DNA from: an uncultured Porphyromonadaceae bacterium
GTDB lineage: Bacteria > Bacteroidota > Bacteroidia > Bacteroidales > Muribaculaceae
DNA: 52,141 nt
Reading direction: 5' to 3'
Assembly (NCBI GenBank): GCA_947175645.1
Contig: CAMWNP010000020.1
Coordinates: 1-52,141, forward strand
Shown piece by piece: positions 1 through 4,900 of the stretch; within the stretch, counting starts at the first letter, position 1, and every line of letters begins with the position of its first letter. A model generated the notes under the pieces. It was not told where the DNA came from. It was given only the letters and a program-made list of their open reading frames with translations, and made no database searches. The position numbers and the translations under genes are program-made.

Positions 1-537
1 ATTCTTATACATTTTTGAAAGGGTTCCGAAAGTTGCCACTTCAATAATCAGCCATGCATCGGGGTTATCCCCTGATAAGGAATTGCAGTTCCATTCAGGA
101 TGTTCTGAGATATATTTTTTTGCGAAGGGTTCGGTGCTCCGCTCAAATTCATATTTCAGATCAAGGACAAAATCCTGGTGACGTTGTTTATCCTCAAATA
201 AATTAGAATCAAGATACCACAAGCCGTTCCCGGCGGTTTTCGACATGTGGTCGATGATTTTGGCTCTGAGTGCAACTTCAATAGTTTCAATGGCATCAAA
301 AAGAATCACCCGGAGTTGATGGTCAAATGCATATCTCCCGATTATGGTCGAGAAAGTAGTGCCGTCCTTAAAAACACCATCAGAATCTACCTCAATCAAA
401 TCTCTCCAATAATATTTAAGTCGTGAATAACTGACACGGGAAAACAAATCGTTGGCCGCTTCCTTATCAGGAAACGTCATACCTTTTTGTTGGAGATATT
501 TTATGTGTTCGTCTATTGAACGAGGTAATTGGTTCAT
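1..537 (-). CDS. Abi_2 (AbiD/AbiF-type) abortive-infection protein, N-terminal 179 residues
   Basis: The reading frame is open from an ATG at 537-535 to the left edge, giving exactly 179 codons without a stop, so the C-terminal part lies outside the window. The protein matches the Abi_2 family (AbiD/AbiF), whose full members are about 300 residues. The diagnostic stretch is RYAFDHQLRVILFDAIE (residues 68-84), followed by IEVALRAKIIDH ending at H97. Within it R91-x5-H97 fits the RX4-6H signature of HEPN ribonucleases. Members of this family abort phage infection, and the HEPN core suggests RNA cleavage. It runs in the same direction as the upstream fimbrial operon but has its own promoter (636-667) and an unusual structured leader. 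Family assignment is firm; activity is inferred. Confidence 0.87.
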   Translation of the reverse strand, partial: MNQLPRSIDEHIKYLQQKGMTFPDKEAANDLFSRVSYSRLKYYWRDLIEVDSDGVFKDGTTFSTIIGRYAFDHQLRVILFDAIETIEVALRAKIIDHMSKTAGNGLWYLDSNLFEDKQRHQDFVLDLKYEFERSTEPFAKKYISEHPEWNCNSLSGDNPDAWLIIEVATFGTLSKMYKN

Positions 538-630
538 ATTATAAAAGAAGTGACCCGCCAGCAGTTCTACGGGATGCTAACGGGTTCGGTTATCTTTGAC
601 TCGGTTGAAACCGATAGTCGCCTTATTTTG
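538..630 (-). ncRNA. Structured leader or candidate small RNA ahead of the Abi gene
   Basis: Read on the minus strand, two hairpins follow the promoter. The first pairs 616-619 with 598-601 and 610-613 with 602-605, with a 4-base loop and a 2-base bulge. The second pairs 575-585 with 553-563, an 11-bp stem around an 11-base loop. Two pairs of the second stem are G-U wobbles in minus-strand RNA but would be C-A mismatches in plus-strand RNA, so the fold makes sense only for the Abi transcript. The stem is followed by CACTTCTTTTATAAT and then the start codon, so it could also stop transcription and release an RNA of about 90 nt. Function is inferred; no known RNA family was recognised. Confidence 0.45.
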
Positions 631-635
631 ATGTG

Positions 636-667
636 CAAAGATACTATTATTTTTTAATATGAGCAAA
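636..667 (-). promoter_or_regulatory. Promoter of the Abi gene
   Basis: On the minus strand TTTG (667-664) is followed after 20 bases by TATCTTTG (643-636), an excellent match to the Bacteroidota sigma-ABfA promoter TTTG-N19-21-TAnnTTTG. Transcription should start near 630, leaving about 90 bases of leader before the ATG at 537. Confidence 0.75.
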
Positions 668-1935: not shown

Positions 1936-4900
1936 TTAGAGTTTGTCCCTTACGCAAAGAATACCTCCGTAGTGACCGCTGATCTGGGTTATGTTACCGG
2001 CTGCCGCGGTGGTAGGCAACTGCAGATTGTTCCAGTTGTAGCGTAGTCGGAACTCTTCCTCACTGAACGAGTGCGGATCACGACCGCTATGGTCGTTGCC
2101 GGTGTTGTTGATAAGGTCGATACCGCCACGGGTAGGATCCTCCCAGAATGTATAACGGGTTCGGCTAAGGACATTTTCCGTTCGGGGGAAAACTCCGGCC
2201 CAGTACATTATTGCTACTTCGGTTATTGTGGGCGTACGCCAGCCTTGCCCGAATTTCTGGGAGCAGAGGGAACGTCGCTGCGGAGAGGCTTCACTTTTGC
2301 GGTTTTCCGTGTCGATTCTGACAAGATTGGGGTTAGTCCAGTCCGGTACAACGTATGTTTTGCCGTTTGAGTAGGAGAAAGTCTTGTAATATCCTTTGTT
2401 GATCACCTCCTTCGCATAGTAGAAACTCTTAGCCGGACGGTTTGCATTGTTGAACGTGGTCACCACTCCGGAGATGTCCTTGTTTTCAAGAGCCAGTCTG
2501 ATGCAGTTGTCGTTTAGTTTGTCAATATCGATGTATCCGGCTGCATTCCCTGAAGCCTGGACATTATTGACATAGAAACCGCTCCATTCATCCTCTTCCA
2601 GAGTAAGATTGGTGCCGAGGTCCCTCACACATCTTACATGAAGTCCGTAGGCGTAACTGCTGTTCATTTGTCCGGTTGACGGTCCTTCTTCCGCCCAGAG
2701 GATCTGATTGGAGCCGTCACCCTCAGGACGTGTGGCTGACATGTAATGCTTGTAGACCCATTTGCCCTCGTTAGCCTCTTTCTGATACAGACGGGCCTCT
2801 GTGGGGAGACCTGCATTTCCAACGTAAAGAGCCTGGAGCTGTGAGATTCCCGGGACGTACCAACGGATTTCCGCAGGATTGATTTTCCCGTCGCCGTTTA
2901 TGTCGCGGTTACGACCGAGACAAGCGGCTATCATGTCAGCCATACCCTGGTTTGAGGTCAGTCTGACGTTTCCTGATATTCGGTAGTTAAGAGGATTGAG
3001 ATATTTGCTGTTATAGTTCAGATAGTCAGTCCAGTTTTTGCCTCGGAGAGCATTGAAGGATGCTTTTCGGGCATATCTGCTGTCAGTGTATGACATATCC
3101 TTATTTGTAGTAAAGGATTTTGGCTTGCCGTTGTTGTCCTCGGCAATCCTTACCATGCGACGTGCTGAAGTCCAGTCGCTTCCTTTGAACCAAGCGAGGG
3201 AGTTGGAGGGTTGTTGTATGTATTCCTCCACACTCTCCGTACCCCAGGCTTTGAATCCGGTGGTCGGTTTGTAGATGGTACGGATTGATCGCTGGGCGAA
3301 CACTCGCCTGGGATTTGAATAAGATGCCTGTGAGTCGGTTGAATATTTGGAAACCGGAAACAGGAGTACTTTTCTGTCGGAGAGGTTCACGAACTGGCTC
3401 CAGTGAACGCTCTTGTCGATTTCCGGGTTTGAAGGAACGGCATTAGGCCATGCCAGGTTTCCTTCTGCAGGTGAGAATGAGGAGTTGCCGTATTTTTTCA
3501 CAAGGCAGTCGTTCCAGTTGTTGCCGTAGTAGTTTTCCTGAACGAACACAGTGTACTTGATCACCTTGCTTGTATTGTTATATGTAGTGGTGTTGCGTGC
3601 AATGCTCTGAAGATCCCATAAGAACCGGTAGATTGTGAGCAGGTGGGGATTGTTTGACCCGTTGACGGATTTGAGTTTGTCGGCATAATTTATCAGCCAG
3701 TCGTCGGCAGCGGCTTCGGTGTCGGTATGACGGTAAAAACGAAGCCAGTCAGCAGAAAGGCAGGCGATGTTGTAAAGGTCCATGTGACCTTTTTTCTTAT
3801 AATAATCCGTGCTGGAGGCAAGCAGTTCGCCGGTATTTTCATCATGCACACCCCAGTCAGCAGAGTTTTCGTTGACATAGGTTCCGTCATCATTCTTGTT
3901 GAGGAACATTTCTTTATCCACGCCGTAGCCCGGGACAATCACGCGGAAGCCGAGCAGTCCGCGGTTATGTAGTTCACGGATTTCACCTACAGTCATGGAG
4001 AAACATGCCTGACAGTAGTGAGAGTCGAATCTGTGGCTGTTGTCAGTATCCATCACAATCACGTCACCTTCAACATCGTCACGCCAATGGTCATCGCTGC
4101 GGTTTACTTCCACTGTAATGTCGTTGATGCCGTTTATGGTAATGTTATAGGTATATTGCCAGTTGCGGAGTGTGGAGTAGTCACGTAAACCCTCCGGGGT
4201 GCCTGTGCCGGAATCATGACCAAGGAAGATAAAATACTCCACATCGGCTGAAACGTTGCCATTTTTTTCATTGCCGTTCTCATCGATATAGTTCGACTGC
4301 CCTGAGTATGTGCCTCTCAAAATAATGTAAGGGGCATAGTCCGGGGCATTTGTGAAATGTTTGTATCGTCCTTCAAGCGTGTCCCATGCTGCGCGGTCTC
4401 CATATTTCCGGATGTCGGATGAACCGGTGGCTTTATATTCAAGCATTTGAAAATCAAATGAATAGTTGTTGCCTGAAGTCTCCTCAAATACGGAAAGTTC
4501 ACCTGAGTTCAAAAGGTGGGACGCCACTTCATCGTCAGGGAGGGGCTTCCCTATCTGATAAAACATGGGAGTGGAGCCCGGCAGATTAACAAACTCATAA
4601 CTGTCAAGGGTGAAGGTGCCGCCTGAGGAGGCCGGACCTTTACCGTTGATGTTGAATTTGACTGATGCCGCAGTGGAAAGCATGTGGATTTTGCCGGGGA
4701 GGGTTCCTGAACGGAAAACAATAGACCCGGATGGATCGAACGTGGAGATGGAAACATCCGTATCTTCCATGTATGCGCCTGACATGATGGATGATTCGGA
4801 GTCGTAGTGTGAGTCACGGGCGTTCAGGGCGAGCAATCCGTCACGTGTTGTGACATCCATCAGTTGATTAAGGAGCGCTGTTGAAGTGATCTCCACGTTG

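Follow-up and report, generated by a model that had tools for sequence, protein, structure and literature searches.

The 52,141-nucleotide stretch of DNA analysed here (the window, contig C20 of an uncultured Porphyromonadaceae bacterium) begins with a truncated toxin gene whose leader encodes a conserved and covarying RNA. RNAs of this kind were found ahead of AbiF genes, are linked by model searches to the known abiF RNA and track the clade of the protein. As judged from sequence comparison, the leader is a real, functional-looking RNA, a diverged version of an antitoxin RNA already known. By analogy with characterised systems, its most probable role (a probability of roughly 0.85) is that of the cognate antitoxin RNA of the AbiF toxin, in a Bacteroidota form overlooked by the Rfam abiF model. 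A first, sequence-only reading had guessed at an RNA antitoxin or an attenuator. This guess gained support from a conserved and covarying stem, its location where abiF RNAs sit and the homology of the protein to PbAbiF, to which we add termination and toxin binding by inference.

The toxin gene (1..537, minus strand, ATG at 537) comprises the N-terminal 179 codons of an Abi_2/AbiF HEPN protein (PF07751, 5.7e-35) and is truncated by the contig start. Elsewhere in the genome, contig C3 carries at its end a C-terminal Abi_2 piece with the motif RNIVAHH (Pfam 2.1e-19). Scanned separately and never joined, the window and C3 pieces reached 121.7 and 71 bits, both above the PF07751 cut-off of 25.6, and they were the only Abi_2 matches in the whole genome. 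Positions 1-55 of the window are identical, over 55 bases, to positions 157574-157628 of C3, at the ends of both contigs, which looks like an assembler overlap splitting the AbiF gene. The nearest named homologous loci belong to Muribaculaceae and other Bacteroidales.

The structure of an AbiF protein together with its RNA antitoxin has been solved for PbAbiF-AbiFr (Zilberzwige-Tal et al., 2025; PDB 8vz6; PMC12373285, PMC12737573). The window piece matched this protein (2.1e-17), and a homologue 97% identical to the window piece (L009) aligned with PbAbiF along almost its entire length (residues 10-306; 7.4e-38), placing RNIVAHH on RNSCCHH. A PDB sequence search at E<=1 returned 8vz6 only, and L009 holds one Abi_2 domain, versus two HEPN domains in Cas13. 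The motif RNxxAHH was counted by eye in all 24 full-length homologues. PbAbiF, which comes from a Prevotellaceae bacterium, is inactive when R210A and H215A are combined (PMC12373285). The sequence-only reading had assigned the catalytic role to R91-x5-H97. This assignment was not borne out, because H97 is missing in 6 of the 24 homologues (several of them near-identical) and RNxxAHH is present in every one and aligned with 8vz6. The catalytic motif is RNIVAHH, which lies on C3 and not in the window. The proposal of an AbiF-type HEPN gene with an adjacent non-coding RNA did hold, as the protein is homologous to PbAbiF and the second hairpin of the leader occupies the place of the abiF RNA elsewhere.

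Promoters of the Bacteroidota follow the consensus TTTG/TAnnTTTG, and the promoter of the window fits it. The −33 element TTTG (664..667, minus strand, as are all features of the leader) and the Bacteroidota-type −7 element TATCTTTG (636..643) are separated by a spacer of 20 nt (from 667-664 to 643-636), and in all 16 leaders compared a TAnnTTTG-like box begins 44-53 nt ahead of the P2 anchor. The 5′ end of the leader RNA (about 90 nt, 538..632), placed by means of this promoter, delimits a sequence of 95 nt that is conserved upstream of homologues and folds at −25.8 kcal/mol (z −2.96), an energy equalled by none of 200 shuffles. The first hairpin, P1 (598..619), is variable in sequence and pairs GAC 619-617 with GTC 600-598 and UCGGU 614-610 with ACCGA 605-601. 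Its support comes from repeated folding, as a hairpin appeared here in 15 of 16 independent folds, and not from a covariation count. Because its fold scores are modest (mean z −1.54, two of the 16 slightly positive) and it is missing in L041, L079-L081, L083 and L084, where the promoter leads directly into P2, P1 looks accessory, and a need for this first hairpin is not supported.

A conserved GAUAAC (589..594; alignments A1 and A2) stands ahead of P2 (552..587), an abiF-type hairpin of 12 pairs. Eleven of them join 585-575 to 563-553, including U580-G558 and U579-G559, and the outer pair G587-C552 closes across the bulged A586. The loop UCCCGUAGAAC (564..574) is highly conserved in the alignments. 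P2 scored 75.5 bits with model R1, in which the window itself is included, and 18.5 bits with model R2. It is followed by a U-rich tail (538..551), a possible transcription terminator in which several T are nearly or fully invariant among 22 sequences. The stretch ACUUCUUUUAUAAU lies directly 3′ of P2, and C552 is located 15 bases ahead of the ATG. In the window the U-run is interrupted; many relatives carry the unbroken UCAUUUUUUU. The promoter (636-667), the two-hairpin leader, the P2 stem and the distance to the ATG had been correctly described beforehand in coordinates and pairs. The U-rich run after the second hairpin stood only in part: the U-rich tail is present, but an uninterrupted run is not found in the window, and a simple terminator scan of the window leader called no terminator.

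Conservation of the leader was analysed in 26 homologous loci with R1, which was built from 17 copies of P2 and whose E-values, like those of R2, are rough owing to a short calibration. R1 matched in the leader of 21 loci, 14 of them in the model and 7 outside it. The hosts include Muribaculaceae, Prevotella, Palleniella, Porphyromonas and Tannerella, and a Chryseobacterium plasmid locus (L041) also carries the RNA. The P2 region showed a mean column identity of 79% across 17 sequences from several genera, and in two close loci (L010, L011) the similarity to the window stops at the promoter (672). Five loci were negative for R1. Three of them, of the Chitinophaga type (L031-L033), have a different hairpin upstream, and L034 gave no match to R1, R2 or RF03085. 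In the fifth, L013, the AbiF ORF is intact, and an IS1380-like element (1-152) takes the place of the leader and abuts the ATG. The 152 bases upstream of this ORF match stretches of plasmids (4 of the 8 rows shown are annotated as IS1380-type transposases), and from the ATG onward L013 and the leader-bearing L012 share 2535 bases with 100% identity. L013 was considered as a disproof of the link between RNA and abiF and set aside on account of this insertion and this identity, with the contig stopping before the far side of the element.

Covariation gave a concordant picture. In alignment A2 (17 sequences), 98.0% of cells are paired and the covariation score is 0.175 versus 0.094 in shuffles, reached by 0 of 500. 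In A6 (22 sequences, including the genome matches and two solitary copies), 96.2% of cells are paired, at most 43.6% when the structure is slid. There are 17 double-change cells versus 4.5 in shuffles (0 of 500), and the covariation score is 0.258 versus 0.119 (again 0 of 500), values to be read with the caveat that kinship of the sequences alone can beat shuffles. Four pairs show double changes, a number reached by 20 of 500 shuffles, and the further pair types were reached by 14 of 500. Seven of the 12 pairs of P2 are invariant and therefore the covariation support rests on five pairs. The wobble pairs U580-G558 and U579-G559 remain U-G in 12 and 13, respectively, of the 22 sequences of A6; among the other sequences, 8 of 10 and 5 of 9 have another standard pair. 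As far as these alignments can tell, the conservation and covariation of P2 exceed chance. The sequence-only reading had named as its refutation a second stem lacking conservation or covariation upstream of homologues; this stem proved to be both conserved and covarying.

Several loci displayed rearrangements around the RNA. In L017 and L029 (around 2001) the leader is intact and the abi reading frame is broken, and in L029 a 56-nt upstream stretch is repeated at the frame break with 86% identity. The unit of RNA and abiF occurs in tandem, with a spacing of about 1.8 kb, in L021 (1929-1986 and 3728-3785) and also on contig C11 of genome G588. In L065, a second window-like hairpin with another loop (2036-2086, minus strand; R1 32.5 bits) lies between an intermediate-type RNA and the abi gene.

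The relation of the leader to the known abiF RNA was addressed with RF03085 (gathering score 37 bits). This model matched in 5 of 395 genomes of the phylum, gave no match in positions 1-1000 of the window at E<=10 and none in 8 window-type loci scanned at E<=5; the leader was accordingly rejected as a plain member of RF03085. In the RF03085 matches, the outer stem is accompanied by an unpaired A and an inner stem of 3 bp; their loop of 11 nt contains CUCU, and a bulge of 6 nt lies on the 3′ side. The window RNA resembles them in place, outer stem, GC-rich inner stem and loop length, and differs in the loop and the bulge. The bulge has shrunk in it to a weakly paired stretch of 3 nt, and therefore the protein contacts may differ.

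Intermediate forms came from a search with a PbAbiF stretch in 393 Bacteroidales genomes, which yielded 64 places in 54 genomes. In the 30 loci examined among these 64, an abiF-type hairpin was present upstream of the gene without exception. Eleven are of the RF03085 type (L046-L056), 18 are of an intermediate type and L071 has features of both. Two PbAbiF-like loci, L046 and L047, share 91 and 88% identity with the query across its 163 residues and have a single RF03085-type hairpin at the corresponding position. The RNA of such loci has a longer 3′ bulge and the loop CUCUCAACGAU, whereas that of the window has a nearly continuous stem, its own loop and the addition of P1. The intermediate type is marked by a CGC/GCG inner stem and, in most cases, by a loop resembling UUCCC..AGAACA; 16 of its members were assigned by pattern, and L065 and L066 by R2. 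Two other genomes of the genus of the window (L006, L007) have AbiF genes with RNA of this type, and a further Abi-like gene in the genus (L008) is without an R1 or R2 match.

Model R2 was built from 11 intermediate-type sequences only (alignment covariation 0.305 versus 0.131; 0 of 500) and run on 72 sources (317 kb) at E<=2. It found 8 of 11 RF03085-type and 15 of 26 window-type leaders, with E-values of 4.8e-6 for L041, 1.9e-4 for L016, 0.0023 for L084, 0.0031 for L055, 0.0088 for L046 and 0.058 for the window. The value of the window itself is weak, and its link to the other types runs via L041, L084 and L016. Eleven window-type loci were missed at this threshold (L014, L018-L024, L040, L081, L082), and two matches fell outside leaders (E 1.1 and 1.8). 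Conversely, R1 gave 10 weak matches (E 0.0003-0.8) in 9 loci of the other types, every one in the leader. L071 (RF03085 42.6 bits, R2 48.2 bits) and L041 (R2 31.8 bits, an R1 member) bridge the types. Because a model made from the intermediate type only finds both of the others, the three types look like one RNA lineage.

A tree of AbiF proteins was built with 44 rows (36 of 47 labelled loci at first and 9 of 15 further loci added), leaving out L079, L061, L075, L050, L071 and L043, from which no ORF was extracted, and the phage row L045, which had a long branch. The 14 window-type rows form a single clade (100/98), which was also recovered in the first, 36-locus tree. Within this clade, the sister position to the remaining rows is taken by L041 and L084, which have loops similar to those of the intermediate type. 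The intermediate type is not a single clade (3 changes), and neither is the RF03085 type (2 changes). The RNA labels require 4 changes on the tree versus 21.6 in shuffles, and RNA type, within this set of loci, follows AbiF phylogeny.

Known systems provide the basis for a mechanism. The PbAbiF locus shares with the window a homologous toxin, the RN...HH motif and an RNA upstream of the gene. In Clostridioides difficile, the RNA RCd22 and abiF have a shared promoter, the 3′ ends of RCd22 were mapped at a terminator, and the RNA acts in cis and in trans and binds the toxin directly (PMC12373285). The order is the same as in the window, where the terminator is a possible one: an RNA leader with its own promoter, a structured motif, a terminator and then abiF (PMC12373285). 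In contrast, RCd22 contains two abiF motifs per RNA plus a separate terminator hairpin, and the window has one motif, which may itself be the terminator stem. ToxIN, a type III toxin-antitoxin system, similarly encodes an RNA antitoxin ahead of the toxin, but toxin and RNA are different, and ToxI is made of tandem repeats. Such repeats are absent here, with one P2 copy in the window leader and also in L046 and L047. We infer that the leader RNA would bind and inhibit its toxin in a type III-like fashion. A single promoter would give rise to both the short RNA and the AbiF mRNA. Following the RCd22/abiF case, most transcripts would stop after P2 and the U-rich tail, producing an RNA of about 90 nt, and read-through would produce the mRNA, so that the antitoxin RNA may double as an attenuator. 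As in PbAbiF and AbiFCd, P2, with its GC-rich stem and UMCCGUAGAAC-like loop, would bind the AbiF HEPN dimer and shut the RNxxAHH RNase site. Phage infection or stress would then disturb the ratio of RNA to protein, and AbiF would cleave RNA and stop growth. For the source species, transcript ends, binding, neutralisation and phage defence are all predicted by analogy.

How the short RNA is produced, and whether it acts beyond its own gene, could be conceived differently. An attenuator acting only in cis would control its gene by premature termination or start masking, and the released RNA would never bind AbiF. The leader does span the region directly ahead of the ATG, with P2 close to the start codon and, behind it, a U-rich stretch that is kept in relatives. 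However, conservation of the loop and of the GAUAAC anchor exceeds what a terminator needs, the models link the leader to abiF RNAs of the AbiF-binding kind (PMC12373285), and solitary copies occur in viral contigs and genomes; this explanation is accordingly improbable. An ordinary terminator hairpin or a chance fold with no specific function would account for a GC-rich stem followed by U-rich sequence, but not for the conserved loop, the covariation, the position ahead of AbiF in several genera or the tracking of the protein clade, and has almost no probability left.

A mixed role deserves more weight, though it is still considered unlikely: the RNA would be an antitoxin by binding, but AbiF or some other RNase would cut it from the mRNA, with no attenuation. 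AbiF processes its own AbiFr (PMC12737573), which together with the interrupted U-run and the negative terminator scan is compatible with such a route. On the other hand, the U-run is unbroken in many relatives, and RACE in C. difficile favours termination upstream of abiF (PMC12373285). An antitoxin RNA released by termination is preferred for the window.

The abiF-type RNA was also found apart from AbiF. R1 gave 12 matches in 11 of the 393 Bacteroidales genomes. Seven lie directly ahead of an Abi_2 gene (the window, two identical copies in G588, and G735, G585, G744 and G656, the last with a short frame), and one more (L080) stands ahead of an AbiF-like start where a contig ends. The remaining four (L078, L083, L085, L086) have no adjoining AbiF, and L085 and L086 reach R1 scores of 38 bits only. 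In L078, a window-type RNA (1501-1556, 70.5 bits) lies immediately 3′ of the AbiEii gene of an AbiEi/AbiEii pair, in a locus without AbiF. L083 contains at 515-628 a window-like and then an RF03085-type hairpin, the latter with 37.4 bits, just above the gathering score; the two are preceded by a Methylase_S piece and followed by an unassigned ORF and then an HTH gene.

Four patterns applied to viral contigs gave 43 loci (10, 0, 29 and 4), which form 33 clusters by their flanks; 15 of the loci have a tRNA gene no more than 500 nt away. Abi_2 is missing from 37 of the 43 viral records, which may be fragments, and present in 6 (3/10, 2/29 and 1/4 by pattern). Window-type copies without AbiF (L088, L089, L093, L094, L096; 30.6-38.7 bits) belong to a single cluster, in which L088 has a phage tail gene and L093 and L096 an endolysin; the ORFs tested in L094 gave no match. 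A stricter pattern, the second of the four, returned 0 viral matches. L090 (59.4 bits) adjoins a tRNA-Glu gene, and its record stops 35 nt past the motif. L095 fits a pattern, was not matched by R1 and appears to be a chance match. AbiF matches in L102 and L130 were discarded as well, as they cover 17-20 residues of a leader-derived part of the query, in records without Abi_2.

Among named phages, 49 records (some of them RefSeq duplicates) matched the RF03085-type query, including Mycobacterium, Acinetobacter Acj61, Synechococcus S-SZBM1, Aeromonas PZL-Ah8, Arthrobacter and Salicola phages. Seven of eight named-phage stretches passed the RF03085 gathering score, the exception being Arthrobacter phage Mimi (L135). 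A blastn search of named phages did not recover the window-type RNA. Homologues of the window Abi protein were present in 29 phage records, among which none of the host genera of the RF03085-type phages appeared; distant homologues may have escaped this search. Lactococcus phage sk1, cited for a region protecting against AbiF, gave no RF03085 match at E<=3.

This distribution suggests that the solitary viral abiF-type RNAs serve in counter-defence. A decoy of this kind has a precedent in phage PhiTE, which carries a ToxI mimic (pseudo-ToxI) (PMC3475682). It is conceivable, with chances a little short of even, that phages have repeatedly acquired members of the abiF RNA lineage as AbiF decoys, often near tRNA genes and with window-form copies in one viral lineage, and that hosts keep solitary copies beside other defence genes. 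An infecting phage would in this way bring the antidote to the AbiF of its host. If this is true, AbiF would join ToxIN as an RNA-antitoxin defence that phages may overcome by means of a decoy RNA. Cyanophage S-CREM1, along with three phages listed in Rfam, has been reported to carry an abiF sRNA, with no AbiF target named in the part of the report consulted (PMC9964418), a finding repeated elsewhere as of unconfirmed role (PMC12197685). A literature search with most subscription journals outside its range found neither a proposal of phage abiF RNAs as AbiF decoys nor a description of the window-type RNA, and earlier descriptions of both are possible.

Cas13 and its guide are viewed as having arisen from AbiF and its RNA (PMC12737573, PMC12165695). 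The related RNA types tied to AbiF clades show an RNA changing along with its protein, and cross-neutralisation between types is testable. The model also offers a means of annotating AbiF antitoxins overlooked by Rfam in gut and oral Bacteroidota. Two further observations concern the viral copies. In an Autographiviridae Aeromonas phage (L133), the RF03085 abiF RNA (1502-1538) is located amid structural genes (connector, capsid assembly). Finally, three viral contigs (L101, L104, L113) have in common a further, similar stretch after the abiF-type motif (GGTAAATGGTTGTAGTGTGGC and the like).
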